DNA from: a virus
Virus record (IMG/VR): IMGVR_UViG_3300032224_000591
Location: 103,757 to 167,756 of that record
Length of the DNA: 64,000 bases
Reading direction: 5' to 3' (one strand)
Below the pieces are notes generated by a model. That model made no database searches and was not told the DNA's origin. It was given only the letters and a program-made list of their open reading frames with translations. Below, in pieces: positions 8,095 to 29,764 of this stretch (the stretch's first letter is position 1; every line of letters begins with the position of its first letter). The translations under genes were made by a program, and so were the position numbers.

Positions 8095-8099
8095 ATAAT

Positions 8100-8176: not shown

Positions 8177-8182
8177 CCTCTT

Positions 8183-8257: not shown

Positions 8258-8262
8258 TTAAT

Positions 8263-8339
8263 GCCCTCGTAGTCCAACTGGCAGAGGCGCCGGTCTTAGA
8301 AACCGGATGTTGTAAGTTCGAATCTTACCGGGGGCACCA
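8263..8339 (+). tRNA. tRNA-Leu(TAG) with short variable loop
   Basis: Acceptor GCCCTCG/CGGGGGC, anticodon stem CCGGT/ACCGG, loop CTTAGAA, variable loop only ATGTT, T-arm GTAAG-TTCGAAT-CTTAC, A73, encoded CCA. The D-arm is Leu-like, but the long class II variable arm expected for bacterial tRNA-Leu is missing. Confidence 0.9.
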
Positions 8340-8554
8340 TATTCGATGAGCAGAATCGCATCCGATCTGAGAGTAAGCCACTATGTGGACCGTCTTTTCT
8401 CAGGTGAGCTCGGGGTAAGACATCTTACATAAGCTTGGTAACCCGGATTCTGAAAAGAGGGTCGACACTCGTCCTCATCGGACCTAATAGCACGCAGGGA
8501 CCCTTGCTTTTATAGCATCGGTTCTTATTCCATAGTGAGTGTAATGCGTGTCTC
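8340..8554 (+). ncRNA. Structured RNA in spacer, about 8344-8480
   Basis: No coding gene. CGATGAG 8344-8350 pairs with CTCATCG 8474-8480, and the directly adjacent CAGAATC 8351-8357 pairs with GATTCTG 8446-8452. Enclosed are CCAC-TAT-GTGG, CTGAGA...TCTCAG and GTAAGA-CA-TCTTAC hairpins. Two long coaxial helices closing a 137-nt element are unlikely by chance. T4 likewise encodes stable RNAs of unknown function in its tRNA cluster. 8481-8554 shows nothing recognisable. Confidence 0.55.
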
Positions 8555-8629
8555 GCATCCTTAGCTTAGCGGTAGAGCGTTCCCTTGACATGGGAGAGGT
8601 CGTTGGTTCGATCCCAGCAGGATGCACCA
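8555..8629 (+). tRNA. tRNA-Val(GAC)
   Basis: Acceptor GCATCCT/AGGATGC, anticodon loop TTGACAT, encoded CCA. Confidence 0.94.
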
Positions 8630-8631
8630 TT

Positions 8632-8708
8632 GCCCATATAGCCAAACTGGTAAAGGCGGCAGTCTCAAAATCTGTAATCTGTAGGTTCAAATCCTACTGT
8701 GGGCACCA
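8632..8708 (+). tRNA. tRNA-Leu(CAA) with short variable loop
   Basis: Acceptor GCCCATA/TGTGGGC, anticodon loop CTCAAAA, variable loop AATCT, T-arm GTAGG-TTCAAAT-CCTAC, encoded CCA. T-T mismatch at 31-39. Leu-type D-loop but no long variable arm, as in the other two Leu tRNAs. Confidence 0.85.
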
Positions 8709-8709
8709 T

Positions 8710-8786
8710 GATTACGTAGCTCAGCAGGATAGAGCATCGGTTTCCTAAACCGAGGGTCGCATGTTCGAGTCATGCCGTGATCACCA
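8710..8786 (+). tRNA. tRNA-Arg(CCT)
   Basis: Acceptor GATTACG/CGTGATC, anticodon loop TTCCTAA, T-arm GCATG-TTCGAGT-CATGC, encoded CCA. Confidence 0.93.
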
Positions 8787-8787
8787 T

Positions 8788-8863
8788 GCTGTCTTAGTGT
8801 AACTGGTAAGCACGTGAGATTGTGAATCTCGAGGTTTTGGTTCGAACCCAGAAGGCAGTACCA
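8788..8863 (+). tRNA. tRNA-His(GTG) without G-1, A73
   Basis: Acceptor GCTGTCT/AGGCAGT, anticodon loop TTGTGAA, discriminator A, encoded CCA. The base before G1 is T, so no G-1 is encoded and position 73 is not C. This matches the derived alphaproteobacterial tRNA-His type and not the usual bacterial one. Confidence 0.92.
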
Positions 8864-8871
8864 TATAAATA
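8864..8871 (+). promoter_or_regulatory. Late-promoter box TATAAATA
   Basis: Exact T4 late consensus directly after tRNA-His. Transcription would start near 8878, at or after the ATG of the next gene, so it may serve tRNAs downstream or a leaderless message. Confidence 0.4.
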
Positions 8872-8875
8872 TGGC

Positions 8876-9523
8876 ATGAGGACAATTGCGCTATTCATCG
8901 ACGAGTCGTCTGACGCCGCCGCAGAGTGTGGCGATGGAATAGTTGAAGCCCTATCTCCTCATTTTCATATCAAAAGATTCACCGAGGAAGAGTGTACTGC
9001 ATCCACATTCAAGGGTGTGGATATGATTGCTTTTCCCGGTGGCGTTGGTGAGTCGGAAGACTATAACTATTTCTTTCGTCGAAAGAGAGAGATGGCTGTA
9101 GTCGAGTACCTTGCCAACGGTGGTAGTTATCTAGGAATCTGTGTCGGCGCTTATTGGGCCGGCTCGCATTATTTTGATGTACTTGATGGAGTGGATGCTG
9201 TACAATACATAAAGCGTCCAACAGCAGACATAAAACGAAGCTACAATAAAGCTATCCCAGTCACATGGAATAGCAAACCTGAGCGGATGTTTTTTAGAGA
9301 TGGCTGTGCCTTCATAGGAGATCAAACGAAGTTCGAAACTGTCGCTCGCTATGCAAATGGCGATCCGATGGCAATCATACAGGGCAAGATTGGCCTGATA
9401 GGTGCTTGTCCTGATTCATTACGTTCATGGTACATAGAACCATACAACAAACCATTTTGGCATGATGGTGCACATCATCAGTTGCTACTAGAGTTCGTAA
9501 ACAAAGTTGGAGCTTTCGTCTAG
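8876..9523 (+). CDS. Glutamine-amidotransferase-like protein (BPL_N type)
   Basis: 215 residues from ATG 8876; a GTG at 8822 lies inside tRNA-His and is rejected. The class I GATase-like fold is shown by MIAFPGGVGES (oxyanion strand, about 45-55) and the nucleophile elbow YLGICVGAYWAG (Cys near 85), with the late His in HDGAHHQLLLEF. This arrangement resembles the BPL_N family (N-terminal domain of biotin-protein ligase), which usually lacks glutaminase partners. Substrate unknown. The C-terminal residues and TAG stop come from the tRNA-Glu at 9509. No clear ribosome site. Confidence 0.8.
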   Translation: MRTIALFIDESSDAAAECGDGIVEALSPHFHIKRFTEEECTASTFKGVDMIAFPGGVGESEDYNYFFRRKREMAVVEYLANGGSYLGICVGAYWAGSHYFDVLDGVDAVQYIKRPTADIKRSYNKAIPVTWNSKPERMFFRDGCAFIGDQTKFETVARYANGDPMAIIQGKIGLIGACPDSLRSWYIEPYNKPFWHDGAHHQLLLEFVNKVGAFV

Positions 9524-9585
9524 CGGTTCAGGACATCGCCCTCTCACGGCGAAGATCACGGGTTCGAATCCCGTAAGCTCTACCA
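9509..9585 (+). tRNA. tRNA-Glu(CTC), overlapped by upstream CDS
   Basis: Acceptor GGAGCTT/AAGCTCT, anticodon loop CTCTCAC, T-arm ACGGG-TTCGAAT-CCCGT, encoded CCA. Its first 15 nt encode GAFV-stop-region codons of the preceding gene. Confidence 0.94.
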
Positions 9586-9590
9586 AATAA

Positions 9591-9667
9591 CCCGTGTTCT
9601 TCTAAAGGCCTAGGAAAACTCGCTTTCAATGAGTGTAATGTCGGTTCGACTCCGTCACACGGGACCA
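9591..9667 (+). tRNA. tRNA-Glu(TTC)
   Basis: Acceptor CCCGTGT/ACACGGG, anticodon loop CTTTCAA, encoded CCA. C1-G72 start and one T-stem mismatch. Confidence 0.88.
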
Positions 9668-9671
9668 ATTC

Positions 9672-9747
9672 GCCTTCTTTGTATAGCTGGTGCGTACGCT
9701 GGTCTGAAGAACCAGAGGACTCCGTTCGATTCTGAGAGAAGGCACCA
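9672..9747 (+). tRNA. tRNA-Phe(GAA)
   Basis: Acceptor GCCTTCT/AGAAGGC, anticodon stem CTGGT/ACCAG, loop CTGAAGA, encoded CCA; one T-stem mismatch. Confidence 0.92.
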
Positions 9748-9753
9748 TAAATA

Positions 9754-9843
9754 GGAGAGTTGGCCGAGAGGCTTAAGGCACACGTTTGCTAAATGTGCGA
9801 ACCCTAACCGGTTCCGTGAGTTCGAATCTCACACTCTCCGCCA
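9754..9843 (+). tRNA. tRNA-Ser(GCT)
   Basis: Class II with long variable arm. Acceptor GGAGAGT/ACTCTCC, anticodon loop TTGCTAA, G73, encoded CCA. Directly preceded by CATAAATA (9746-9753). Confidence 0.95.
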
Positions 9844-9847
9844 CTAT

Positions 9848-9921
9848 ATCGGTAAAGTGTTACGGTAGCACGATGGTCTCCAAAACCGCAAGCCTGGGTT
9901 CGACTCCTAGTACCGGTGCCA
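9848..9921 (+). tRNA. tRNA-Trp(CCA)
   Basis: Acceptor ATCGGTA/TACCGGT, anticodon loop CTCCAAA, G73, encoded CCA. Confidence 0.92.
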
Positions 9922-10124
9922 AACATATATAGTTCGTCTGCCACGGAATGTCAGTCGGAATAATAGTTAGTAGCTAGTCACTGCAACTACCGAGCCAACC
10001 GTGCCTCTAGATCTTGTTATATCAGACTGGTATAACTTAGGGAGTGACTTCCGAGATTGGCTGGATAGAGGGCGCTGCAGTGGGGCAGCAGGCAAGTAGC
10101 GGAGAGCTACACCCACAAGAATTA
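9922..10124 (+). ncRNA. Structured spacer between tRNA-Trp and tRNA-Ser
   Basis: 203 nt without a gene. Contains GTTATA 10016-10021 / TATAAC 10031-10036 and GTAGC-GGAGA-GCTAC just before the Ser tRNA. Fold only partly resolved by eye. Confidence 0.35.
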
Positions 10125-10208
10125 GGAGGGTAGCGTCTAAGGTAGACACACAGTCTTGAAAACTGCGCCACCTCACGGTTGATGGTTCGATTCCTTTACC
10201 CTCCGCCA
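10125..10208 (+). tRNA. tRNA-Ser(TGA)
   Basis: Class II with long variable arm. Acceptor GGAGGGT/ACCCTCC, anticodon loop CTTGAAA, G73, encoded CCA. Confidence 0.93.
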
Positions 10209-10239
10209 TTATACGGTTAGTCGCGCTAAATAGACTCGT

Positions 10240-10259
10240 GTGGGCCACGGTTAGCCCAC
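10240..10259 (+). promoter_or_regulatory. 5'-UTR hairpin before 2OG oxygenase gene
   Basis: GTGGGC 10240-10245 pairs with GCCCAC 10254-10259, 20 nt before the start codon. Similar in position to the longer hairpin at 12175-12217. Confidence 0.4.
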
Positions 10260-10279
10260 GACTTCAATTGGAGTTTATT

Positions 10280-10858
10280 ATGCAATTCATGAACTTATGG
10301 GCAACTCCTGTTGCCATCTTTCAAAATAGAGACTATAGAGATATTAACGCTGAGATCCTTAAGCACGAGGAACTTAGGGGTTGCACGTTTCTTAATAAGA
10401 AGGATGTGTGGGACTATAGAGATACTGTCCCAGCCTTACAAACACTATATGATTGGATGCTGGAATGCACGGCCAAGTACGCTGAAGAGTGTTTTGGTAT
10501 GGAGTATACGCCAGAGATTTTCTATCATGGCCATGGTTCAATGAACTTTCGTGGCAAGGGTGAAGAGGCACTTCTGCATACTCATCGCCTCACTACTGTG
10601 GTGATGACGTATTATATCGACGTCCATGACAATTGCGGCGACATCAGACTCCTAGACCCCAGGAGCACGCTAGGTTGGATCAGCCGTAATGACGGCAGAC
10701 CTTATAATCAGTACACACATAGTCCTAACAATGGTGAGCTTATCATGTTCCCTGGTTGGGTTACACATATGGTTGCTCAGAACCAAACTGACAAGGAGCG
10801 TGTCGCTCTTACGTCAAACGTATATCTTAAGGATGAGCACAAGGATAAAGTGTACTGA
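10280..10858 (+). CDS. 2OG-Fe(II) oxygenase (first of pair)
   Basis: 192 residues from ATG 10280 (GGAG 10270-10273); an upstream in-frame ATG at 10238 overlaps the leader hairpin. The C-terminal half shows the double-stranded beta-helix pattern: HTHRLTTVVMTYYIDVHD, then GDIRLLDPR, then NGELIMFPGWVTHMVAQNQT with the distal His, and KERVALTSNVYL with the 2OG-binding Arg. This resembles the putative 2OG-Fe(II) oxygenase family common in T4-like cyanophages. Substrate unknown. Overlaps the next oxygenase gene by 1 nt (TGATGG). Confidence 0.82.
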   Translation: MQFMNLWATPVAIFQNRDYRDINAEILKHEELRGCTFLNKKDVWDYRDTVPALQTLYDWMLECTAKYAEECFGMEYTPEIFYHGHGSMNFRGKGEEALLHTHRLTTVVMTYYIDVHDNCGDIRLLDPRSTLGWISRNDGRPYNQYTHSPNNGELIMFPGWVTHMVAQNQTDKERVALTSNVYLKDEHKDKVY

Positions 10859-11343
10859 TGGATAGATTCTATGTAATTGACGATGTCTTTGACGAGCGTA
10901 TTCGCCTCAAGATTCGTGACTTTGAATATGGTCCTGCATCACCACAGAAGTGGTATGACTTGGGTTCTAATCCAGATCATGAGAAGATCTTTGACATTGC
11001 GGTCGAGCTTGGGTTTGGATTTATTCATGGCGCCGGTATCATTGGCTATGAGATGTGGTGCAACACCAGGGCTGTTGGTTGGCATTACGATCATGATGAG
11101 GTAGCCTCGCGTGAGGCTGGTAAGCTCATCACTCCTATCTTTGCTGCTGTATACTATGCCGAGGTGGCAAACCTAGAGGGTGGTGACCTAGTGACAGAGT
11201 CACATCGTATCACACCAAAGACTAATCGTCTTGTCATCATGAGCGGTGGTTTGAAGCATGCTGTGTATCCGTATGCAGGTACACGTAAGGCCATCACAAT
11301 CAATCCATGGGATCATAAAATAATCAATGCGGGTGTGGTATAA
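10858..11343 (+). CDS. 2OG-Fe(II) oxygenase (second of pair)
   Basis: 161 residues, prolyl-4-hydroxylase-like. Iron ligands are visible: HYDHDE (HxD, near residue 80) and the distal His of MSGGLKHAVYPYAGTRKAI, with Arg for 2OG nine residues on. Coupled to the preceding oxygenase by overlap, so the two probably act in one process. The last residues and the TAA stop are formed by the 5' part of tRNA-Gly at 11329. Confidence 0.85.
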   Translation: MDRFYVIDDVFDERIRLKIRDFEYGPASPQKWYDLGSNPDHEKIFDIAVELGFGFIHGAGIIGYEMWCNTRAVGWHYDHDEVASREAGKLITPIFAAVYYAEVANLEGGDLVTESHRITPKTNRLVIMSGGLKHAVYPYAGTRKAITINPWDHKIINAGVV

Positions 11344-11403
11344 GGGTTGTGCCTTAGCCTTCCAAGCTAATGAAGACTGGTTCGAGTCCAGCCATCCGCT
11401 CCA
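11329..11403 (+). tRNA. tRNA-Gly(TCC), overlapped by upstream CDS
   Basis: Acceptor GCGGGTG/CATCCGC, anticodon stem TTAGC/GCTAA, loop CTTCCAA, U73, encoded CCA. First 15 nt are also coding. Confidence 0.92.
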
Positions 11404-11415
11404 TTAAGGTACATA

Positions 11416-12156
11416 ATGTTCACATTCTTCCATCGTAAAAAGAGAGTGACGGTCGATTGCTTCACCTGCATTCCGGCAGTTCACGAGTATACACCAATCG
11501 TAAGAGCGTCTAAGACGATTCCCGATTGGTGGAAGAACTTGCCTAAAGTTGGGCCTCTTAAACGTGACGATGATGGAATATTTCAACTAGACAATAACAT
11601 GCGTCGGTGCTATGGTTTTCTAGAGCTCTACAAGCGTGGAGCTATCATTGAATCATGGACCGATGCGCACTTTGAGATAGCACCCGATACATATAGGTTC
11701 CATGTTACAATTGGTGATAAGCCTACATGGCATCTGAAAGAACAGTTCAAAGGTGGTTTCGATAACTATCATCATATTAAGTTAATGAGTCCTTGGCATT
11801 TCCGTGAGAAATCCGGAATGCCCTTTTTATTCATGGGAGCCGAATGGTCTATTGAGTTTCCATTTAAGGTTCTACCCGGAGTTGTTGAGTACCAGAACGT
11901 ATCAGGTACTCACATCAATATGATGGCTCCTAAGTATACTGATCCATACGAGATGACAATCAAGCTTGGGCAACCTCTTGTACATGTTATCCCATTACAG
12001 GACGATGTGCATGTAGACTTTAAGTCACATCTACTGACAAAGCCTGAGTTTGATAAGGTTACTCTTCACGGAGGTATATCATACGACGGTCTTCGAGGTA
12101 TGGTAGGTATGCGTAAAAGGAATGCTGAGAGGAAGTGTCCGTTTGGCTTCGGATAA
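11416..12156 (+). CDS. Conserved phage protein, unknown (possible oxygenase-associated)
   Basis: 246 residues beginning MFTFFHRKKRVTVDCFTCIP. It is rich in aromatic residues and His/Asp, with IVRASKTIPDWWKNLPK near the N-terminus and a C-terminal MRKRNAERKCPFGFG. The pattern IPDWWK resembles uncharacterised proteins that accompany 2OG oxygenases in marine myoviruses, but I cannot name a family. No signal peptide. It starts 12 nt after tRNA-Gly with a weak ribosome site. Confidence 0.7.
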   Translation: MFTFFHRKKRVTVDCFTCIPAVHEYTPIVRASKTIPDWWKNLPKVGPLKRDDDGIFQLDNNMRRCYGFLELYKRGAIIESWTDAHFEIAPDTYRFHVTIGDKPTWHLKEQFKGGFDNYHHIKLMSPWHFREKSGMPFLFMGAEWSIEFPFKVLPGVVEYQNVSGTHINMMAPKYTDPYEMTIKLGQPLVHVIPLQDDVHVDFKSHLLTKPEFDKVTLHGGISYDGLRGMVGMRKRNAERKCPFGFG

Positions 12157-12159
12157 ATA
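12152..12159 (+). promoter_or_regulatory. Late-promoter-like GATAAATA
   Basis: One mismatch to TATAAATA, 67 nt before the start of the large envelope protein gene; it fits late expression of that gene. Confidence 0.5.
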
Positions 12160-12174
12160 AACACATGAACGCAT

Positions 12175-12217
12175 CGTTATGAAATCCTGATGATTGGTAA
12201 TCCTCAATTTCATAACG
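12175..12217 (+). promoter_or_regulatory. 11-bp hairpin abutting ribosome site of envelope protein gene
   Basis: CGTTATGAAAT 12175-12185 pairs perfectly with ATTTCATAACG 12207-12217. The 3' strand touches the ribosome site GGAG (12217-12220). The structure may tune translation or protect the 5' end of the late message. Confidence 0.65.
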
Positions 12218-12226
12218 GAGTTTCAG

Positions 12227-14053
12227 ATGAAGAGATTTTTAGTAGCCCTAATTGGGCTATGCGCATTTACGTGTGCAGCCGTAGCACAGAACCTACCAGC
12301 CGGTTCGTTAGGAATCGTCAATAACAATACGCCAAACACATGGCAGACATTTACCTACTCGTTCACACCATCGACAACAGGTGCTAATTTCGTAGGTTTT
12401 GCATTTCGTCAGGATCCAGCATTCTGGACTTTCGACAATGTCAGACTAACAGCAGCTGGTTCATCAACCAACCTGCTAACTAACGGTGCCTTTGATACAG
12501 GCGGACAGTTCAGTGTAACAACCACTAACGGTCCTTCCTCTATGCAGGCACCAACTAATTGGGGCGTATGGTATCAAAATGGAACATATCCTGCTGCCGC
12601 TGGCACTTGGACTAACGTTGGGGGGACTCATGGTGGCGTATGGTATGACGGAGCTGTTGGCTCGTTCGACGGTATCTATCAAGGCGTGGCTCTCCAGGCG
12701 GGCACCACTTACACAATTTCTTTTGAAGTTAGCGGGAATCACGCTGCTGACAATGGTGCTGTTCAGCTTGGCATTTATGGCGGCGCTTGCGCAACTGTAA
12801 GTATTGCACCTAATCAGTGCACGATCCCACCATCCGCCGGATTCACTACGCTTGCTACACCTGCTCAAGGTGCAGCTGCTGGTGGACCTGCAGTTCCTAC
12901 TATCGTAAGTGAATTGCCTGGAACTCCTAGTGTATCATCATCTAGCGCCCCTGGCACATTAGTAACCACAACAGCAAGCACAAGAGGCACTTCAACAACG
13001 GCAATCGCCCGTTCAGATGCTGCTGCTAGATCCGTTAACAATATCAATATAACAAGAACTACTGTGACCACAGTTACGACGCCGGTCACAACTGTTACCA
13101 CGCGTACAACTCCTATCGTCACAACGACAACGACTATACCTAGAACAGTCACAACGTGGAGCGATGGTACCACAACGACAACTGATGGAACACCGGTTGT
13201 CACACGCACAACAACCAATCAGATTGTCACATCATCAGCAATAGCTAACGATGTACAGTCGACAACGGGAACACAATCACAGTCTGTTAGCTCTAATGGT
13301 GCTAAGAGTGCTGTGTCTTATCGTAACAATAATCCATTCATTGTCGACACACTAAGTCAGAAAGATGGTGCATGGATCAGTCCATCGGCTAGCTACTACA
13401 AGTCAGTAGGTAGCATGTCATCAGGTGGCATCGCTGCTGGTTATCAATGGACTGTTGAGAATAACACGTTCGGTACTGCATTTGCATACAACAGTGCAAA
13501 GAGTGGTGGACTAGTTGGATCTGATGTTCAAGCTGTCACCTACGATGGTGTTGCATATGCACTTAGCAAGCAGGATGGTGTTTGGTTCAAGGGAACCATT
13601 GGCTATGGTTATGGTGACTACACAACCAACACATCGATCCCACTATTTGCCCTGTACAATACGGGTAAGATGAAGCAAAAGTCATACGTAGCTGACCTGA
13701 CTCTTTACAGTGCAGCAGACTACATAGGCTTCCGTCCACTGATTGGCGCTACGATCAATAAGAGCCAGATTGAGGCTTCTGCTGCTGGTAGTCCACTATT
13801 AGACACTACGGGTGACATCAAGTCTACAACTACGGTAAATCCATATGTAGGTGCTAGATATGACTTCACAGATAGTGTGGGTATCGAGATGAGAGCCACA
13901 CAGACTAAGGACTTCAAAACAGTCGGTGGAATCCGCGCTGTTGCCAAGACTGAGCTGTTTGATGGTGTGTTCCTGAATGCTACGGTAGGACTAGATAAGG
14001 GAACAGGCTATCAAGCAGCCTCCGGAACACTAGGTATCAAGGTCGCCTTTTAA
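12227..14053 (+). CDS. Exported passenger plus C-terminal beta-barrel protein (autotransporter-like)
   Basis: 608 residues from ATG 12227 (GGAG 12217-12220). A signal peptide (MKRFLVALIGLCAFTCAAVA-Q) is followed by a Gly/Asn/Thr-rich beta domain to about 215 with carbohydrate-binding-like features (FDNVRLTAAG, GTTYTISFEVSGN). A Thr/Val-rich low-complexity linker (about 240-350) follows, then a C-terminal domain of about 250 residues with alternating hydrophobic strands (WFKGTIGYGYGDY, VGIEMRATQTKDF) and terminal Phe (GIKVAF), as in autotransporter barrels. Likely inserted in the outer membrane of the infected host or exposed on its surface. Unusual for a phage. Alternative: host-derived adhesin. 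Confidence 0.75.
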   Translation: MKRFLVALIGLCAFTCAAVAQNLPAGSLGIVNNNTPNTWQTFTYSFTPSTTGANFVGFAFRQDPAFWTFDNVRLTAAGSSTNLLTNGAFDTGGQFSVTTTNGPSSMQAPTNWGVWYQNGTYPAAAGTWTNVGGTHGGVWYDGAVGSFDGIYQGVALQAGTTYTISFEVSGNHAADNGAVQLGIYGGACATVSIAPNQCTIPPSAGFTTLATPAQGAAAGGPAVPTIVSELPGTPSVSSSSAPGTLVTTTASTRGTSTTAIARSDAAARSVNNINITRTTVTTVTTPVTTVTTRTTPIVTTTTTIPRTVTTWSDGTTTTTDGTPVVTRTTTNQIVTSSAIANDVQSTTGTQSQSVSSNGAKSAVSYRNNNPFIVDTLSQKDGAWISPSASYYKSVGSMSSGGIAAGYQWTVENNTFGTAFAYNSAKSGGLVGSDVQAVTYDGVAYALSKQDGVWFKGTIGYGYGDYTTNTSIPLFALYNTGKMKQKSYVADLTLYSAADYIGFRPLIGATINKSQIEASAAGSPLLDTTGDIKSTTTVNPYVGARYDFTDSVGIEMRATQTKDFKTVGGIRAVAKTELFDGVFLNATVGLDKGTGYQAASGTLGIKVAF

Positions 14054-14055
14054 GG

Positions 14056-14084
14056 TGTACAAACTCTCTCCATCGTGGTATAAT
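14056..14084 (+). promoter_or_regulatory. Early/middle promoter, TGTACA-N17-TATAAT
   Basis: TGTACA 14056-14061, TATAAT 14079-14084 preceded by GG, starting right after the stop of the envelope protein gene. Confidence 0.85.
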
Positions 14085-14107
14085 ACTTAAATGATGGAGA
14101 GAGACAC

Positions 14108-14338
14108 ATGACTGAAGTTATCCAGTTCCCACTGCAATCTAGAGATGCTACGATTATCCAGGGAGTAGCAACTCAGCGGCCTTATAACAAGGCTAAGTAC
14201 GTTGCCCTCATCGAGAGGTTCTTGACTGAGGATGATTTCGATTTTGTGATGAGAGCCATTGAGGAACCATTCCTCTATGCTGCTCTTGAGCCTCAACTGC
14301 AAAAGATCGTTGACTGTTACTTTAGTTACGATTCTTGA
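14108..14338 (+). CDS. 76-aa early protein, unknown
   Basis: Starts 24 nt after the promoter at 14056-14084, with GGAGAGAGAC as ribosome site. Acidic, helical C-terminal half (FLTEDDFDFVMRAIEEPF). No recognised family. Confidence 0.68.
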   Translation: MTEVIQFPLQSRDATIIQGVATQRPYNKAKYVALIERFLTEDDFDFVMRAIEEPFLYAALEPQLQKIVDCYFSYDS

Positions 14339-14340
14339 TG

Positions 14341-14348
14341 TATAAATA
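14341..14348 (+). promoter_or_regulatory. Late-promoter box TATAAATA
   Basis: Exact consensus, 27 nt before the ATG of the ArfA-like peptide; spacing suits a short leader with AAAGGTG ribosome site. Confidence 0.65.
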
Positions 14349-14374
14349 AACTTACGAACACGCAAAGGTGCACC

Positions 14375-14503
14375 ATGACTAAGCAGATTACACATCGTAA
14401 TCCAGTTGCTAAGGCTCTGAAGAGCCAGTCTTGCCGTGCGCGTGTGGTCGCTGCTAAACGCGGCAAGGGTTCCTACAAACGTCAGAGCTTCAAAAAGTTC
14501 TGA
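14375..14503 (+). CDS. ArfA-like ribosome-rescue peptide
   Basis: 42 residues behind the late box at 14341. The sequence NPVAKALKSQSCRARVV then RGKGSYKRQSFKKF resembles bacterial ArfA, whose conserved core is a short helix ending RQRV followed by KKGKGSYxRK. ArfA recruits RF2 to ribosomes stalled on non-stop mRNAs. The phage copy ends soon after the GKGSY motif, as active truncated ArfA does. Followed 6 nt later by tRNA-Lys. The match is by eye; a chance basic peptide remains possible. Confidence 0.65.
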   Translation: MTKQITHRNPVAKALKSQSCRARVVAAKRGKGSYKRQSFKKF

Positions 14504-14509
14504 GGTCAC

Positions 14510-14586
14510 GGATCCTTAGCTCAGTAGGTTAGAGCAGCGGTCTTTTAAACCGACGGTCCCGGGTTCGAATCCCGGAGGATCCACCA
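14510..14586 (+). tRNA. tRNA-Lys(TTT)
   Basis: Acceptor GGATCCT/AGGATCC, anticodon loop CTTTTAA, T-arm CCGGG-TTCGAAT-CCCGG, encoded CCA. Confidence 0.95.
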
Positions 14587-14611
14587 TTATTCTTATTCAA
14601 AGTTTTATATC

Positions 14612-14710
14612 ATGTGCAATCTACGTGACTTTATTATGGTAGTGATTATGTGCAACTTGATTGCAATCTTAGCATCTTGTGTTATAATTGCATTGAGTTA
14701 TTGGAATTAG
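14612..14710 (+). CDS. Possible 32-aa membrane peptide
   Basis: ATG 14612 to TAG 14708-14710. The peptide MCNLRDFIMVVIMCNLIAIL is almost entirely hydrophobic, with three Cys. No ribosome site is seen and the region also contains a sigma70-like promoter, so this may be a chance frame. Confidence 0.25.
   Translation: MCNLRDFIMVVIMCNLIAILASCVIIALSYWN
14671..14698 (+). promoter_or_regulatory. Host-like sigma70 promoter before porin gene
   Basis: TTGCAA 14671-14676, 16-nt spacer, TATAAT 14693-14698, located 34 nt before the porin start codon. The -35 differs from the TGTACA phage class, suggesting the gene came with its own promoter. Confidence 0.5.
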
Positions 14711-14731
14711 AAACAAACAAGGAGCAATAAA

Positions 14732-15283
14732 ATGCAAAAGACTATCATTACGGCGCTTGTTCTTCTTGCGTCGACAGCAGTGGCTTCGGCTACTGATCTG
14801 CCAAGCAAGACGAAGGCACCGTCTCTACCCACTCTAGCTCAGTCAACAGACTTCTACGCTGGTGTGAATGCAGGCGGTAACTTCAACGATGCACGCGTCT
14901 ATTCTGGTGGTGCTGTTGCTGGCTGGAACGTCCTACCGTTCCTCGCAGTAGAAGGTACATACGACTTTTCTGTTCCACAGAATAAGATCAAGGGTGATTA
15001 CAACTACCAGAATACGGTTGCTGTAAACGCTGTACCGCAGTACAAGGTTCCCGCTCTTCCAGTCACTGTCTATGCACTAGGCGGCGCTGGCTATCGCTGG
15101 AACACTGCAGCTACCGTAGCGGATATTTCCGTTTATAACTTCGGTGCTGGTGCTAAGTATGAGTTTGCTAAGGGGATCGAAATCGATGGTCGCTACCGTC
15201 GTATTGATGCCATTGAGTCAAAGAACCGTACTTCGACTTCGGCCGAAGATCGTGCTACGATTGGTGTGAACGCAAAGTTCTAA
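14732..15283 (+). CDS. Omp25-like outer-membrane beta-barrel protein
   Basis: 183 residues with AAGGAG ribosome site. Signal peptide MQKTIITALVLLASTAVASA, mature start TDLPSKTKAPSLP, which resembles the ADLP...AP start of Rhizobiales Omp25/Omp31 porins. About eight amphipathic strands follow (DFYAGVNAGGNF, VYALGGAGYRW, FGAGAKYEFAKGIEIDGRY) and the chain ends in Phe (GVNAKF), the Bam recognition signal. It probably inserts in the host outer membrane during infection; roles could be receptor masking or envelope support. A terminator follows. Confidence 0.85.
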   Translation: MQKTIITALVLLASTAVASATDLPSKTKAPSLPTLAQSTDFYAGVNAGGNFNDARVYSGGAVAGWNVLPFLAVEGTYDFSVPQNKIKGDYNYQNTVAVNAVPQYKVPALPVTVYALGGAGYRWNTAATVADISVYNFGAGAKYEFAKGIEIDGRYRRIDAIESKNRTSTSAEDRATIGVNAKF

Positions 15284-15295
15284 TCTAGTACTAAG

Positions 15296-15333
15296 CTCAG
15301 GCGCAGTGATCACAGATACTGCGCCTGAGTTGT
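15296..15333 (+). terminator. Intrinsic terminator after porin gene
   Basis: CTCAGGCGCAGT 15296-15307 pairs perfectly with ACTGCGCCTGAG 15318-15329 (10-nt loop), followed by TTGT. A 12-bp GC-rich stem with a weak U-tract. Confidence 0.85.
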
Positions 15334-15346
15334 ATGCAAATAGCAG

Positions 15347-15374
15347 TGTACAAACCTGACCGGCGTGATATAAT
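15347..15374 (+). promoter_or_regulatory. Early/middle promoter, TGTACA-N16-TATAAT
   Basis: TGTACA 15347-15352 and TATAAT 15369-15374, spacer containing GACCGGCGTG. Heads the operon beginning at 15404. Confidence 0.85.
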
Positions 15375-15403
15375 ATACTAATGAATAAGACGAGGTTAAC
15401 ACT

Positions 15404-15760
15404 ATGAATGATTTCAACACAGCACTGACTAAAAACTATACGAAGTTGTCGCTCATCACGGTAGCTTCATTATCGAGTACCCTTGGTCTTCGTACCGAGT
15501 TAGCTATCATCCTGAATGATATGGCCATGGCTACGTGGATCTCTATCATGTGGGTTTTTATCATCATCGCCGTCTTGGCCTACTACAAGTCTAAAGCTGA
15601 TGTTGAGTTGGAAAAGTTTCGCGAGGGCGAGAAAAATCGCATCTTGATGGGTCTAAAACCACTCTCCACGTATACATACACAGGCCAGTCTGAACAGGTG
15701 ATTGGCAAGGAAACATTGGATCGCCTAAACTCAGTGGATACTAAAGTTAGGGAGAAGTGA
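15404..15760 (+). CDS. Small membrane protein, unknown
   Basis: 118 residues. Two hydrophobic segments, about 17-45 (LITVASLSSTLGLRTELAII, weak) and 46-64 (ATWISIMWVFIIIAVLAYY, strong), followed by a charged cytoplasmic helix. First gene of an operon of overlapping small genes running to 18707. Function unknown. Confidence 0.7.
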   Translation: MNDFNTALTKNYTKLSLITVASLSSTLGLRTELAIILNDMAMATWISIMWVFIIIAVLAYYKSKADVELEKFREGEKNRILMGLKPLSTYTYTGQSEQVIGKETLDRLNSVDTKVREK

Positions 15761-15761
15761 A

Positions 15762-15962
15762 ATGAACCGCTTTATCGTAAAGTACGACATTAAGCATACC
15801 GAGCGTTCGTCTCTTTTGAGTGGTGTGCTCATGCCTGAGCAGTGCAAGTTTGTTAATCTGCAGGATGCGATCAAGTTCGTTCGTGCGATGCGTGGTCATC
15901 GCACTCCTAAGTACGAGGTTGTTGGCATGCCTGTCATCGAGCACATCTCTAACTTCTCATGA
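15762..15962 (+). CDS. 66-aa protein, unknown
   Basis: MNRFIVKYDIKHTERSSLLS; alpha/beta mix, basic. One nt after the previous stop; its end overlaps the next gene (ATGA). No family recognised. Confidence 0.68.
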   Translation: MNRFIVKYDIKHTERSSLLSGVLMPEQCKFVNLQDAIKFVRAMRGHRTPKYEVVGMPVIEHISNFS

Positions 15963-16747
15963 GCGACTGGGAAACTAAAGAAAACCTCACTAGAATGCGT
16001 AGCGGTGAAGCTATCGCTGCTTTTGACTCTGATGTATATAGTGAACTTGAGAAAACGTATGGAAAATATCTCTATGTGCCATATGATGTGCCAAAGATAC
16101 TTCCATACGACATCAACAAGTTTGTAGACTTCTACTTCCGCAATGCTAAGTTCTCCCAGAAATTGAGAGAGGACATTGCGGAAGGTATCCCACCAAAGTA
16201 TGAGACTACACCCTATCTGTCTGTTGATGGCGATGAAACCAATAAGAACTCAGTGTGGAGTAAGAACAGGGTACCAGAGATCTTCACGGAATTTCCGGAA
16301 ATCTTTGAGCAGATAAATGAGTATATGCCATGGGTGAATGGTCCACAGAGTTTGTCGTGGACGATGTGGTCCAGCGCTAAGGACATACTACCTCATCGTG
16401 ACCTAAAGTCTATGTTGGATATGCCTATCAGGGTACGAATAAAGTTATTCGATAGTAATCCTGTGGAGACATTGAGTGTTCAACTTGCACCGGTCGAAAA
16501 GGATCAGGGTGAGTTCATTCCGCTAAGCATTCCAAGTGATACTAACTCGTTCGCCTGGAATAATCTGAGGACGCGTCATAGGAGTTTGTTTACTCCTCCA
16601 TATAGGAAAATACTGATGATCTTCTTTGCTAACTACAAAGGAGTGTCGATGAATAAGTACGTAGACATGCTTGATAGAAGTGTCCACAAATACAAGGATC
16701 ATCTGATTGTAGACAATCAGACAACAGCGAAGGATTATATATTATGA
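15959..16747 (+). CDS. Aspartyl/asparaginyl beta-hydroxylase-like 2OG oxygenase
   Basis: 262 residues. Near residue 140 the text WSSAKDILPHRDLKSMLDMP gives an HxD pair (His-Arg-Asp), followed by RVRIKLFD and SFAWNNLRTRHRSLF with the distal His and then an Arg-containing strand PPYRKILMIFF. This order fits the 2OG-Fe(II) beta-hydroxylase family. It is the third such enzyme in the window. Substrate unknown. Overlaps both neighbours by 4 nt. Confidence 0.68.
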   Translation: MSDWETKENLTRMRSGEAIAAFDSDVYSELEKTYGKYLYVPYDVPKILPYDINKFVDFYFRNAKFSQKLREDIAEGIPPKYETTPYLSVDGDETNKNSVWSKNRVPEIFTEFPEIFEQINEYMPWVNGPQSLSWTMWSSAKDILPHRDLKSMLDMPIRVRIKLFDSNPVETLSVQLAPVEKDQGEFIPLSIPSDTNSFAWNNLRTRHRSLFTPPYRKILMIFFANYKGVSMNKYVDMLDRSVHKYKDHLIVDNQTTAKDYIL

Positions 16748-17244
16748 TGAAGTTTGTGATCGTCCCAGCTATGGCTCTTGCTCTGGCTGGCTGCAACATG
16801 GAACCTTCTAGTGATCGCCAACAGCGTGAGCAGCAGGAAGCAATTTCGAAACAAAGCCATATGGCCGTAGGCATGCCTGCTATCACTCGCTTCTCTGAGA
16901 AGCGTATGATGAAAGACATCCTAGAGATGCGTGATCAGATGCATCCTACCTACACGTACCTTGTCGGTGAACAGGCCGGTGTGATTGGTGAGAAGGTTTG
17001 TGACTCACTTGGTTATGGCCTCAACGGCGCTACGCAGTATACTAATCCTCAGAAAATGACATACTCTGATGGTGGTGGACATGTGCTAGTTCTCCCTCAG
17101 GCTGATCCTAATGGTTTGTTCTCACCCGCTACCACCGAAGGTACGTGGGTGATGTGTAAGGTTCCTGGTACTGATAAGATCTTGCCTCAGTATATCGAGC
17201 CTCGTGTTATTGTGCTGACATTCCCCAAAGAAGCGAGGAAGTGA
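16744..17244 (+). CDS. Lipoprotein, unknown
   Basis: 166 residues. Signal peptide MMKFVIVPAMALALAGC with lipobox LAGC (Cys17), then a polar mature part with two further Cys. Targeted to the envelope. Overlaps both neighbours by 4 nt. A role in lysis or exclusion is possible but not shown. Confidence 0.78.
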   Translation: MMKFVIVPAMALALAGCNMEPSSDRQQREQQEAISKQSHMAVGMPAITRFSEKRMMKDILEMRDQMHPTYTYLVGEQAGVIGEKVCDSLGYGLNGATQYTNPQKMTYSDGGGHVLVLPQADPNGLFSPATTEGTWVMCKVPGTDKILPQYIEPRVIVLTFPKEARK

Positions 17245-17438
17245 TGAAAAAGCTGAGTGAATATAATAGAGATAAGGGCGAAAGTTCGAAACCCTCTATC
17301 GGTTATGCAAATGTGAAATGCGATGATTGTGATGTTGAAATGTACTATGACAATCCATATGTTGCTCTTGCAAGTTTGCCAATGCAGCAATCAGTTGTTT
17401 GTCCTAAATGCAACAAACGTGACTATAAGGTGCTGTGA
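17241..17438 (+). CDS. Zinc-ribbon-like small protein
   Basis: 65 residues with two CxxC pairs: KCDDCDVEMY and VCPKCNKRDY, about 28 residues apart. Likely binds one zinc ion. Could be a transcription or translation modulator; no specific family. Confidence 0.7.
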   Translation: MMKKLSEYNRDKGESSKPSIGYANVKCDDCDVEMYYDNPYVALASLPMQQSVVCPKCNKRDYKVL

Positions 17439-17794
17439 TGAGCTATAAGAATGATGCAAAAGAAGTCGCCCAGTTCTTTTCCCTGTTTGGGTTTGGTGTT
17501 TGGGGAATAGTGTTGGTACTCCTGCCGCTGATTGGTGGTCTTGGATATATTTCCTACCTTGCGTATTCGTTCTATGCTCCCAAGTATGAGCAGGTTCGCT
17601 ATGATACGTTCAAGCAGAGTCAGACGTACAATGATGGTATGCTCCGTGACCTGCAGGATCTGCAGATGGAGTACATGAAGGCTAACGACGAACAGAAGGC
17701 TGCTATGAAGGCAATCATCCTTCACCGCTTTGCTGTCTATGACGTTAATCGTCTGCCAATCGACCTTCGTTCATTCTATCAGAGTATCCGATAA
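17435..17794 (+). CDS. Membrane-anchored helical protein, unknown
   Basis: 119 residues with one strong transmembrane segment at about 18-45 (LFGFGVWGIVLVLLPLIGGL) followed by a long charged helix. Overlaps neighbours. Function unknown. Confidence 0.7.
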   Translation: MMSYKNDAKEVAQFFSLFGFGVWGIVLVLLPLIGGLGYISYLAYSFYAPKYEQVRYDTFKQSQTYNDGMLRDLQDLQMEYMKANDEQKAAMKAIILHRFAVYDVNRLPIDLRSFYQSIR

Positions 17795-18039
17795 TGAATC
17801 TCGAGGGTGGAGAGATTTATAAGAAGTTTATGGATGAGGGTAAGCTAATGCAGTTTATGGTTAAGCATCAGAAGTCACTGCAGTATGAGATTGACTATCT
17901 GAAGACTCAGCTAAAGGATCATGACACTGGTCATATCCGTACCGCTATCTCTGTGCTAGAGGAGCGTGTAGTTGAGATTCAGAAGTATATCGACAGTGTA
18001 CACGATATGATTATTAGAGCGCAGGCGGTGCTAGGATGA
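17794..18039 (+). CDS. Coiled-coil small protein, unknown
   Basis: 81 residues, predicted coiled coil (YEIDYLKTQLKDHDTGHIRT). Starts in a TAATG overlap with the membrane-anchored protein before it; the two may pair. No known domain. Confidence 0.66.
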   Translation: MNLEGGEIYKKFMDEGKLMQFMVKHQKSLQYEIDYLKTQLKDHDTGHIRTAISVLEERVVEIQKYIDSVHDMIIRAQAVLG

Positions 18040-18707
18040 AAGTAAACATTGGTCCCTATTTGACTTGGTACGGTCCTTATCAGATCGCTGATATGATTTT
18101 CTTTTGGATTAAGACCAGGGGCATTTATCTGAAGGATGATGACCCGCTCAATGAGCGTTGGGACTATGTAGCAAAAGAAAAGTTTGGTGACTGGCTGGCT
18201 GATACTTGGGTTGCTAATTTCTGTAACTGGATCCAGGATAAGCGTAAGCGCACAGAAAAGGTTGAGATTCATCATTATGACGTATGGTCCATGGATCACA
18301 CGCTCGCGCTTATCATTCATCCTATGCTGGTAAAGCTAAAGGAACAGAAACATGGGGCTCCCTTTACCGAGGATAAAGATGTTCCAGAGCATTTGCGCTC
18401 TACCTCTGCACCTCCGCTGACTGAAGATGAAAAAAACTGTGGTTCTACTGATAAGCTGTTCTTCGATCGCTGGGAATATATTCTTAATGAGATGATTTGG
18501 GCTTTCTATCAAGCTGCAAAAGACGATCCGGACGCGCCTGAACAACCTAAATTCTATACGCGCAAGCTGCTTGACAATGATTTCGATGATTCTCCTGATA
18601 ACGTTGAAGCTTGGAAAAACTATCAAGTGGAAAATGTCAAGTTTGAGAAGCGTAAAGAGAACGGTTATTTGCTATTTGGTAAATACTATCGTGGGCTGTG
18701 GGACTGA
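18036..18707 (+). CDS. Conserved phage protein, unknown
   Basis: 223 residues. Trp/Tyr-rich start (MKVNIGPYLTWYGPYQIADM), acidic centre (TEDKDVPEHLRST), ending YLLFGKYYRGLWD. It resembles an uncharacterised protein common in T4-like phages that reads GPYQIA near its start; I recall no function. Ends 4 nt before tRNA-Gln. Confidence 0.72.
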   Translation: MKVNIGPYLTWYGPYQIADMIFFWIKTRGIYLKDDDPLNERWDYVAKEKFGDWLADTWVANFCNWIQDKRKRTEKVEIHHYDVWSMDHTLALIIHPMLVKLKEQKHGAPFTEDKDVPEHLRSTSAPPLTEDEKNCGSTDKLFFDRWEYILNEMIWAFYQAAKDDPDAPEQPKFYTRKLLDNDFDDSPDNVEAWKNYQVENVKFEKRKENGYLLFGKYYRGLWD

Positions 18708-18711
18708 TTGA

Positions 18712-18786
18712 TCGGGGTTAGTTTAATAGGTAGAACGAAGGACTTTGAATCCTTTGGTCGAGGTTCGAGTCCTTGCCCCCGAGCCA
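18712..18786 (+). tRNA. tRNA-Gln(TTG)
   Basis: Acceptor TCGGGGT/CCCCCGA (one mismatch at 7-66), anticodon stem AAGGA/TCCTT, loop CTTTGAA, G73, encoded CCA. Confidence 0.92.
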
Positions 18787-18802
18787 ACGTTGGAGATATA
18801 TG

Positions 18803-18997
18803 ATGAACGATAAGTTGATAGCAGAGCTTGTCAATAAAGACAAAATTATTGATGATTTGAAGGCAACGATGCGGGACGCAATGTTTCAAATCAATTGTGA
18901 AGACCCTTGGCAAGCCTACGAAATTCTTGAAGAAGCGGTACAAAAAAACAACGGCGATTGGGAAAAATTAGATGTTGTTCTTCAGCAAGAATGTTGA
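18803..18997 (+). CDS. 64-aa acidic helical protein, unknown
   Basis: ATG 18803 is 7 nt from GGAG 18792-18795; ATG 18800 is possible. MNDKLIAELVNKDKIIDDLK is coiled-coil-like. Its 3' end overlaps the next gene by 26 nt. Confidence 0.6.
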   Translation: MNDKLIAELVNKDKIIDDLKATMRDAMFQINCEDPWQAYEILEEAVQKNNGDWEKLDVVLQQEC

Positions 18998-19181
18998 GAA
19001 ACGAATTGCTTGGAAGATTGAGATTGATGGTATTACCACAGAAGGTAAACCAATCTATCACGTTTACAAAGCAAGAGCACCTTATGGCATGGATTTAGTT
19101 TGTGAGTTCCATGACTATGATATGGCAAAACGATTTGTAGAAAAGCACATCGACTTTCCTGTCTATTTCTACGAGGATTAG
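18972..19181 (+). CDS. 69-aa protein, unknown
   Basis: MLFFSKNVEKRIAWKIEIDG then an alpha/beta pattern ending DFPVYFYED. Overlaps the previous gene by 26 nt in another frame. Function unknown. Confidence 0.62.
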   Translation: MLFFSKNVEKRIAWKIEIDGITTEGKPIYHVYKARAPYGMDLVCEFHDYDMAKRFVEKHIDFPVYFYED

Positions 19182-19184
19182 CAA

Positions 19185-19469
19185 ATGCCTTTTGGTGGAT
19201 ATAACCCATTAGATGATGGCGAGTATGAAGATTTTTCGCCATGGTTCAAACCTGAAAGAAAAGTGGAAAAAGTAGTGACAGAGACTTTAACATTCACCTG
19301 CAAAGAACTATACGACCTCTATAAGTGGATTGATGCTATGGATCCAAAGCCGCATCTTATTAAGATCTATAGCACGCAGACCGGCATCGGTCCATCTCTG
19401 CGTGCTGAGATTGATAACGGTGAAGGTGAAGGGATCTATAAGGACTTTACCGACTATGAGAGTTGGTAA
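19185..19469 (+). CDS. 94-aa acidic protein, unknown
   Basis: MPFGGYNPLDDGEYEDFSPW; acidic, mostly soluble, with central TLTFTCKELYDLYKWIDAMD. Ends 10 nt before tRNA-Val. Function unknown. Confidence 0.65.
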   Translation: MPFGGYNPLDDGEYEDFSPWFKPERKVEKVVTETLTFTCKELYDLYKWIDAMDPKPHLIKIYSTQTGIGPSLRAEIDNGEGEGIYKDFTDYESW

Positions 19470-19479
19470 ATAGAGTAAT

Positions 19480-19555
19480 GCCCGGTTAGCTCAGCGGTAG
19501 TAGCATTTCCTTTACACGGAAAATGTCGGCGGTTCGATCCCGTCACCGGGTACCA
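19480..19555 (+). tRNA. tRNA-Val(TAC)
   Basis: Acceptor GCCCGGT/ACCGGGT, anticodon stem TTTCC/GGAAA, loop TTTACAC, encoded CCA. Its CCA abuts the stop codon of the convergent o-spanin gene. Confidence 0.93.
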
Positions 19556-25887: not shown

Positions 25888-27294
25888 ATGTCCATTGAGC
25901 AAACCATTCTCAGCAATCTCGTCTATAATGAAGCGTACGGTCGTAAGGTTATCCCATTCCTCAAAGATGAATACTTTTCGGATGTTCCTATTCGAACAGT
26001 ATATCAACTCATTGATGCGTACGTTAAACAGTACAACGCATTTCCTTCCAAGGAGGCGCTGGCTATCGACTTATCCAATCGAGTTGGTACTCCAGAAAAC
26101 GTGTTCAAGTCTTCTAAAGATATTGTAGAGAGTTTAAGCTTTGACAAAGACACGCAAGTCGAATGGCTTGTCACCCAGACAGAGAAGTTCTGTCAAGAGA
26201 AGGCAGTATACAATGCGATCATGTCATCCATCCAAATATTGGATGACCGTGATGGGAAAATCTCTAAAGGCGCCATTCCGCAAATCCTATCGGACGCGCT
26301 CGGTGTATCATTCGATACTAACATCGGGCATGATTTCATTGAAGATGCGGATGCTCGCTATGAATTCTATCATACAAAAGAAAATCGCATCCCATTCGAT
26401 CTTGACTACCTCAACAAGATCACGGGTGGCGGGCTACCTAACAAGACGCTGAATATCATCCTTGCTGGTACTGGTGTCGGTAAGTCGTTGATGATGTGTC
26501 ATATGTCAGCTGCTAACCTTATGGTTGGTAAGAACGTTCTCTATATTACCATGGAGATGGCTGAGGAACGTATCTCTGAGCGTGTTGATGCTAACCTGCT
26601 TGATGTACCATTGGATCAACTCAAGGTTATTCCTAAAGACATCTACGATAAGAAGATGGACAAGATACGTAAGAAGACTCAGGGTAAGCTTATCGTTAAG
26701 GAATATCCTACTGCCTCTGTTGGGTCTGCAAACTTTCGTCATCTGCTTAATGAGTTGAAGCTTAAGAAGAAGTTTGTCCCTGACATCATCTATATCGACT
26801 ATCTGAATATCTGTACGTCTTCGAGGATTAAGCATGGAGCCCAAGTCAATTCTTATACCCTTATCAAGGCAATCGCAGAAGAGCTCAGGGGATTGGCAGT
26901 CGAGTTCAATGTACCTGTCGTCTCTGCGACTCAAACAACTCGAAGCGGATATTCGAGCAGCGACTTGGAACTGGGAGATACGTCAGAATCCTTCGGACTC
27001 CCAGCCACAGCTGATTTTATGTTTGGTATCTCCACATCAGAAAAGCTGGATGAACTCGGCCAGATCATGGTTAAGCAGCTCAAGAATCGCTATGGTGATC
27101 CCAGCACTAATCGTAGGTTCGTTGTTGGGGTGGATCGCAGCCGCATGCGTCTATATGATGTAGAGCAGTCTGCACAGGATGACATCATGGAGGATCGTCC
27201 TGTTATGGACAATGGTCACTTCATGACTGAGGATACTGAACGCAACAAGCCAAGGCAGAAGTTCACTAAGGACGTATTCGCGGGGTTCAAATGA
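25888..27294 (+). CDS. 41: Replicative DNA helicase gp41 (DnaB family)
   Basis: 468 residues. N-terminal helical domain, then the RecA-like core: Walker A LAGTGVGKSLMM near 192-203, Walker B DIIYIDYLNICTS near 305-317, and VVSATQTTRSGY (Q-loop) near 345. Hexameric 5'-3' helicase of the phage replisome, partner of primase gp61 (at 39559). Overlaps the next gene by 4 nt. Confidence 0.96.
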   Translation: MSIEQTILSNLVYNEAYGRKVIPFLKDEYFSDVPIRTVYQLIDAYVKQYNAFPSKEALAIDLSNRVGTPENVFKSSKDIVESLSFDKDTQVEWLVTQTEKFCQEKAVYNAIMSSIQILDDRDGKISKGAIPQILSDALGVSFDTNIGHDFIEDADARYEFYHTKENRIPFDLDYLNKITGGGLPNKTLNIILAGTGVGKSLMMCHMSAANLMVGKNVLYITMEMAEERISERVDANLLDVPLDQLKVIPKDIYDKKMDKIRKKTQGKLIVKEYPTASVGSANFRHLLNELKLKKKFVPDIIYIDYLNICTSSRIKHGAQVNSYTLIKAIAEELRGLAVEFNVPVVSATQTTRSGYSSSDLELGDTSESFGLPATADFMFGISTSEKLDELGQIMVKQLKNRYGDPSTNRRFVVGVDRSRMRLYDVEQSAQDDIMEDRPVMDNGHFMTEDTERNKPRQKFTKDVFAGFK

Positions 27295-29178: not shown

Positions 29179-29405
29179 GTGACTCGCTAATTCAAGACAT
29201 TAGAGCTGTCAACTATTGGGAGTACATTGAACCACCGTGGGATGGTGTCACTATTCCTCGTCCAGAGAAGCAGCTAGTTGTTACCAACTATCAGCTACAG
29301 ATACGCAAGATTGTCGTAGATGCTCAGGGTCAGCCGACTCTAAGTGACTGGACTCCGATTCAAGTTCTCGATCATTATCCATCAACGATAAAGGTAACTC
29401 CATGA
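29175..29405 (+). CDS. 76-aa protein, unknown
   Basis: Start ATG 29175 overlaps the previous stop (ATGA). MSDSLIQDIRAVNYWEYIEP, beta-rich C-terminus. No family recognised. Confidence 0.62.
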   Translation: MSDSLIQDIRAVNYWEYIEPPWDGVTIPRPEKQLVVTNYQLQIRKIVVDAQGQPTLSDWTPIQVLDHYPSTIKVTP

Positions 29406-29611
29406 ACTACAAGATCGTATCTACAAGCGAGCTGCACCAGATCCTAGAGACTGCGACAGAGCAGGTGATCGAATCATTCCCAACTAAAGAAGAGGCACGT
29501 AAGATGCTGCGCCACTTCAACCTTGGTGGTGGGTTTGATGGGTACACACCAACCTTCATGGTAAAAAATTGTTCTAAACTTCTTCAAAAATTAGAATCCG
29601 CGTATAAATAG
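29402..29611 (+). CDS. 69-aa protein, unknown
   Basis: MNYKIVSTSELHQILETATE; helical with a Gly-rich turn GGGFDG. Its last codons and TAG coincide with the late box TATAAATA 29603-29610. Confidence 0.62.
   Translation: MNYKIVSTSELHQILETATEQVIESFPTKEEARKMLRHFNLGGGFDGYTPTFMVKNCSKLLQKLESAYK
29603..29610 (+). promoter_or_regulatory. Late-promoter box TATAAATA before ncRNA
   Basis: Exact consensus at the end of the upstream gene. Expected transcript start about 29616-29618, exactly where the closing helix of the structured RNA begins. Confidence 0.7.
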
Positions 29612-29616
29612 GTTCA

Positions 29617-29750
29617 CGAGCGAACTGTGTACTGTGTCTGCAGCACAAGTGGCAAGTTAGTAACGTTGGAATAGTCGGGAATAACGGTGGGGTTCCGCCT
29701 GACCACATTCGCTAGTGATACGAGGGGTGAGCGCAAGCTCACCCCTTTTT
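29617..29750 (+). ncRNA. Structured ncRNA with its own late promoter and terminator
   Basis: About 130 nt with no coding frame. AGCGAACTGTG 29619-29629 pairs with CACATTCGCT 29704-29713 (one bulge), closing the element. Inside are a GGTGG-GGTT-CCGCC hairpin near 29685 and a TGTG...CACA stem near 29633-29648. The molecule ends with an intrinsic terminator. Promoter, closed fold and terminator together argue for a discrete late small RNA. No known family recognised. Confidence 0.7.
29724..29750 (+). terminator. Intrinsic terminator
   Basis: GGGGTGAGC 29724-29732, GCAA loop, GCTCACCCC 29737-29745, TTTTT 29746-29750. Perfect 9-bp stem with a GNRA loop. Confidence 0.93.
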
Positions 29751-29756: not shown

Positions 29757-29764
29757 GATAAATA
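29757..29764 (+). promoter_or_regulatory. Late-promoter-like GATAAATA
   Basis: Immediately after the terminator and 28 nt before the start of the head-protein-like gene at 29792. One mismatch. Confidence 0.6.

Follow-up and report, generated by a model that had tools for sequence, protein, structure and literature searches.

Comparison of homologous loci makes it almost certain that a family of structured RNAs is encoded beside the replication genes of a group of T4-superfamily phages. The member described here lies in a 64,000-nt window, the whole stretch of DNA that we analysed (IMGVR_UViG_3300032224_000591, positions 103,757–167,756; coordinates below are the window's own). The comparison shows a predicted fold, a putative late promoter and a terminator at each copy, the presence of a single copy, and linkage to the locus of gp41 and a small protein. 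Taken as a whole, this is probably a single-copy, late, free-standing RNA that acts in trans through an invariant core, to which a protein or RNP of the phage or host binds. A sequence-only reading of the region had proposed a discrete late small RNA with a promoter, a closed fold and a terminator. That proposal is borne out across the family, and the four-way junction, the invariant core, the linked small protein and the size of the family described below go beyond it.

A late promoter, a closed element and a terminator next to the replication genes

The gene order at the locus is DNA polymerase, UvsX, gp41, a small gene, the RNA and then late genes. The gp41-type replicative helicase gene (25888–27294, + strand; phrog_19, E = 5e-127) is the upstream landmark, and it is kept as a neighbour at 65 loci. 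The late promoter box, TATAAATA, is at 29603–29610 (+ strand). The closed element spans 95 nt (29619–29713) and is followed by an intrinsic terminator, GAGGGGTGAGC-GCAA-GCTCACCCCTT plus a U-tract (29722–29750, + strand), whose GCAA loop is a GNRA loop. When the sequence was checked, box, element and terminator were all found in the positions that the sequence-only reading had given them. The next late box, GATAAATA (29757–29764, + strand), serves the downstream gene, and another TAAATA is found no more than 120 nt away at most of the homologues.

The predicted RNA runs from 29617 to 29750 on the + strand, its start being placed by the T4 late-promoter spacing and its end by the U-tract of the terminator, a geometry that recurs throughout the family. 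Both the exact start near 29617 and the length of ∼130 nt are predictions. The late timing is supported by a gp55-type late sigma factor encoded in the window's genome (phrog_234, E = 5e-56); such a gene is present in five of the seven records searched, this genome among them. The late-type boxes in the window are split 15:4 in favour of the + strand. From these signals we infer that the RNA is transcribed and that it is made late.

The small gene between gp41 and the RNA (29402–29611, + strand) encodes a conserved protein of 69 amino acids. Its stop codon is contained in the last bases of the late box (TATAAATAG), so the final residues of the protein are dictated by the promoter sequence. A confident model of the protein has a beta-beta-beta-alpha-alpha fold. 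Structure comparison of this model gave no significant match in the PDB and matched only uncharacterised phage proteins, which offer no clue to its function. By BLAST, a relative of the protein from contig L053 had no match in 50,697 GenBank phages. Pelagibacter phage HTVC008M has gp41 followed by an unannotated small frame (L274:3887–4085) that ends in GGLPKFFYD just before a CTAAATA box; judged by eye, the protein linked to the RNA might have a distant counterpart here.

Two sets of homologues

The first relatives came from a query with a downstream protein, namely L001, which is identical over 161 bp and has an adjoining gene 92% identical, and L002, which is 89% identical. A 21-base core pattern matched contigs with different surroundings, and two looser patterns matched 40 stretches (some of them by chance) and at least 119 stretches, respectively. 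The pattern scans gave more than 100 homologous contigs in IMG/VR, the true members sharing the core and having a TAAATA box just 5′ of the element, helices that vary and a terminator. The pattern-found set (A3) consists of 80 distinct rows, in which the search patterns fixed part of the core.

A second set, which avoids selection for the RNA core, was obtained by searching with the small upstream protein alone (window 29402–29611). This protein has 384 relatives in IMG/VR, and the best 80 of them were fetched. A model built on the first set, and so possibly blind to highly divergent cores, detected the RNA in 72 of these 80, in the position that the layout of the window predicts. Among the remaining eight, two contigs stop at or shortly past the gene, and the RNA is missing from the other six. 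Of these, L195, L249, L250 and L268 look like genuine absences, and in L265 and L266 the matched region enters another gene. The RNA can be lost, since L195, L249/L250 and L268 have the small gene without it. L195 is a natural absence in which a terminator and a late box come straight after the small gene, the RNA being missing (L195:1894–1990). Contig L019 likewise has a relative of the small gene, and the RNA is absent from it.

The RNA is probably encoded as a free-standing gene

In the protein-found set, a TAAATA box was present upstream of all 51 distinct copies (1.4% at random sites), and a terminator was found downstream of 50 of them (1.9% at random sites), the exception being a copy at a contig end. 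In 49 of the 51 copies, no more than a few bases separate the box from the modelled 5′ end, which would place a T4-spaced start at or beside the closing helix, as had been proposed from the sequence. Each RNA-bearing record searched, up to 195 kb in length, has one copy of the RNA. The late genes downstream of it belong to several unrelated families and usually have a late box of their own. In one lineage, represented by L056, L072, L081, L130 and related contigs, the RNA has a long form, in which a further hairpin is inserted between P4 and P5, and its orientation with respect to gp41 and the small gene is reversed. The varied downstream genes with their own late boxes, together with the inverted lineage, argue that this is a free-standing gene and not a leader. 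A promoter and a terminator of its own at the copies, as well as compensatory change in the helices, are what a free-standing RNA gene should have; the fixed sense association with a downstream gene that would mark a riboswitch or a cis leader was not found.

Relatives of the element show no sign of protein coding, in agreement with the earlier statement that no coding frame fits; they gather paired compensatory changes, as well as insertions and deletions of any length.

The element is predicted to fold into a four-way junction with an invariant core

The modelled fold is a four-way junction that is closed by P1, with P2 and P3 as variable arms and with P4 capped by P5. The arms of P1 are AGCGAACTGTG (29619–29629, + strand) and CACATTCGCT (29704–29713, + strand); they form 10 pairs in the window, with C29625 bulged. 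All eight modelled P1 pairs change on both sides in relatives. The native arms of P1 pair at −12.2 kcal/mol, compared to −6.7 ± 0.3 kcal/mol when arms are swapped among members. The P2 hairpin, TGTGT-CTGCA-GCACA (29633–29647, + strand), covaries at all four modelled pairs, and its loop is often self-complementary in relatives. P3, GTT-AGT-AAC (29656–29664, + strand), is short and weak in the window, where it has three pairs only; across the family its halves pair better in their native combination (−4.1 kcal/mol) than when swapped (−2.1 ± 0.2 kcal/mol), which suggests that P3 is weaker but real. P4 is formed by GTCGGG (29674–29679, + strand) and CCTGAC (29698–29703, + strand), and in the protein-found set it covaries, with five of its six pairs changing on both sides. 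P5 is the hairpin CGG-TGGGGTT-CCG (29685–29697, + strand). Its closing pair is C-G, U-A, A-U or G-C in different relatives and its 7-nt loop, UGGGGUU, is constant in 52 of 52.

Apart from this loop, the invariant letters are on the two junction strands, GNGGC within AGTGGCAA (29648–29655, + strand) and GGAA within GGAATA (29668–29673, + strand), each found in 53 of 53 distinct rows. The three motifs did not vary in the 52–53 distinct rows of the protein-found set. The most conserved letters are those that are unpaired or within the P5 hairpin, and most of the helices vary freely while they go on pairing.

We observed strong covariation in both sets. In A3, 95% of the cells pair; there are 380 double-change cells with pairing kept, compared to 89.7 ± 11.9 after shuffling, and the covariation score is 0.63, compared to 0.04–0.11 with partners slid. 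The protein-found set has 269 such cells, compared to 71 ± 9.7 after shuffling and 10–31 after sliding, where the cells in both sets count sequences and not independent events. Covariation in homologues is one of the signs that the sequence-only reading had asked for, and it is present in both sets. The stability of the single sequence was rejected as evidence for the fold. Without the terminator it was no better than that of shuffled sequence (z = +0.28, not significant); the z of −2.77 obtained with the terminator is due to the terminator. It is only through the homologues that the fold can be told from chance, by the covariation, by the fit of the P1 arms, and by the box and terminator at nearly every copy.

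The RNA marks one clade of uncultured phages

In a gp41 tree, all the RNA carriers are in one well-supported clade (100/98), and the long form is one lineage inside it (L116, labelled as short in the tree, belongs to the long form). The only members of this clade without the RNA are Stenotrophomonas phage DLP6 and contig L019, both of which are on long branches. The nearest cultured phages have only ∼60% identity in gp41. The RNA marks one clade of T4-superfamily phages, and it appears to be carried next to the helicase gene by hundreds of uncultured T4 relatives. The model had no significant match in T4, Melnitz, DSL-LC02, DLP6, HTVC008M, S-SSM5, Syn30 or the single-cell genome AG-345-E15. 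BLAST, which is less sensitive than a covariance model, gave only chance matches for five element sequences against the 50,697 GenBank phages. In 85,000 bacterial and archaeal genomes, a pattern scan found 12 matches, and none had a significant full-length match to the model; among them L170 (partial, 24 bits) and L178 (E = 0.79) were judged chance-like. The weak model matches L188 and L017 (E = 0.2) were also set aside, the L188 sequence being without the core.

Scanning with Rfam 15, which the sequence-only reading had suggested as a check, matched no family at the gathering cut-off over the element, either in the window or at seven homologous loci. With thresholds relaxed, the four members scanned had no match or, at most, one of 20.3 bits to BjrC68 over the terminator, for which the cut-off is 39. 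The relaxed matches to BjrC68, MicX and DnaX were rejected, as they are far under their cut-offs and lie over the terminator or on the opposite strand. A description of the RNA was not found in the literature searched, the coverage of which was partial. Fremin and co-workers reportedly published a large-scale list of candidate viral RNAs in 2023, and the RNA may be present there, unnamed. We regard it as a new RNA family that has no relation to those already known. Orphan phage RNAs in the broad sense are not new, and no new biochemistry is shown here. Despite decades of work on T4 and related phages, neither Rfam nor the papers that we found contain a conserved late structured RNA like this one.

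Comparison with known structured RNAs

The pRNA of phi29 (Rfam Phage_pRNA) is also a phage-encoded structured RNA of similar size, and possible loop-loop self-pairing is a further likeness, which we treat as a lead only. However, Rfam gives no match, phi29-like phages are podoviruses unrelated to these, and the present RNA differs in its invariant sequence core, its gp55-type late promoter and its intrinsic terminator. T4 itself makes the small stable RNAs C and D (species 1 and 2), which are of 120–140 nt and have no function assigned in the record. These two adjoin the tRNA cluster in T4, and they had no core in common with the present RNA when the sequences were inspected by eye; the whole T4 record, rnaC and rnaD included, had no match to the model.

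The motifs manA, wcaG and PhotoRC-II of cyanophages and marine metagenomes are structured RNAs that were found by comparison in T4-like aquatic phages (Weinberg 2010, PMC2864571). manA is located in 5′ UTRs, wcaG is a proposed cis regulator and PhotoRC-II is tied to probable psbA genes, manA and wcaG being proposed regulators of the genes that they accompany (PMC2864571). In contrast, the RNA described here comes with a promoter and a terminator of its own, and the Rfam models of these three motifs do not match it.

A four-way junction is also typical of tRNA and tmRNA, and here too about two unpaired bases usually separate P1 from P2, and P4 usually adjoins P1 directly. But P1 is longer than an acceptor stem, and there is neither a CCA end nor a T-loop. 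Neither ARAGORN nor Rfam identified a tRNA or tmRNA at the element, although 31 tRNAs were called elsewhere in the window.

Possible functions of the RNA

The RNA is kept as a single copy across a large uncultured clade, with a constant core and rewritten helices, and so it must do something specific. According to the reading that we favour, the phage late sigma factor would switch on a noncoding RNA of ∼130 nt that consists of the folded domain of ∼95 nt and the terminator. The RNA would fold into the four-way junction, in which P5 would present the invariant UGGGGUU loop and the junction strands would carry GNGGC and GGAA. A phage or host protein or an RNP would then bind this core in trans late in infection, and the helices would be a scaffold, free to change in sequence. 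A scaffold that presents a binding site is favoured by the location of the invariant letters, which are unpaired or in P5, and by the freedom of most helices to vary. Action in trans by binding of a protein or RNP, as opposed to antisense pairing, is the weaker, inferred part of this reading. A more specific version, in which the RNA is the core of a late phage RNP with a job that is new for phage RNAs, for instance as a head or packaging RNA of T4-superfamily phages, perhaps dimerised through the P2 loop, or in the takeover of a host machine via UGGGGUU, appears improbable to us.

Bacterial trans-acting sRNAs pair with mRNAs, and the present RNA could do the same with phage or host mRNAs through the UGGGGUU loop or another single strand. 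Its size, its promoter and its rho-independent terminator are typical of a bacterial sRNA, and the G-rich invariant loop could serve as a seed. However, the complement of the loop, AACCCCA, is not enriched in the window (3 occurrences, 4.3 expected), whose 64 kb are a limited sample of antisense targets. The invariant letters are distributed over the loop and two junction strands instead of forming one accessible seed, and a four-way junction with so much covariation exceeds what a seed carrier needs, so we hold an antisense function to be unlikely. Still less probable is that the RNA is produced together with the head genes and becomes a component of the capsid, portal or motor, like the phi29 pRNA, possibly dimerised through P2. 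The late promoter speaks for it, as do adjoining genes whose products have N-termini resembling the T4 capsid-targeting leaders. In the window, the proteins at 29792, 31063 and ∼61822 begin with MRSFLAFLRED, MLVFKNYLIES and MQSFTEYLTET, respectively, like such a leader, and the one at 31063 carries DUF6267 and a cytidylyltransferase region. In addition, 23 of 55 distinct P2 hairpins contain a palindrome of 6 nt in the loop plus closing pair, compared to 6.9 expected, an excess that is overstated as the rows are related. On the other hand, the P2 loops are not self-complementary in many lineages, the pRNA family of Rfam is unmatched, and T4, which has a comparable packaging motor, has no match to the model.

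The location upstream of late genes and the terminator at the end of the RNA would also suit a cis element, that is, a leader or attenuator controlling the next late gene via the terminator. The downstream families differ, though, and most have their own late box past the terminator; in the long-form lineage the gene that comes next has the opposite orientation, and L195 keeps the terminator and late box without the RNA, all of which makes control in cis very unlikely. Finally, the locus is where replication genes meet the late gene block, and promoter and terminator might simply set a boundary between early and late transcription, with the body of the RNA as a by-product. A by-product would not retain covarying helices and an invariant core, and given the covariation we attach hardly any credence to this explanation. 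The preferred reading, a free-standing RNA bound in trans through its core, is open to direct testing, as the alignment and the model name the letters of the loop and junction strands to mutate and the locus to inspect in metatranscriptomes.

tRNA genes and other late-type boxes in the window

The 31 tRNA genes called by ARAGORN, at 4811–19555 and 58261–58774 of the window, are a large set for a phage. Two late-type boxes, TATAAATA at 8864 and CATAAATA at 9746, abut the 3′ CCA ends of tRNAs. At 4401–4460 of the window, the hairpin GGACGC-TTCG-GCGTCC and a T-rich stretch lie within ∼45 nt downstream of CATAAATA, an arrangement that possibly yields another very short late transcript.
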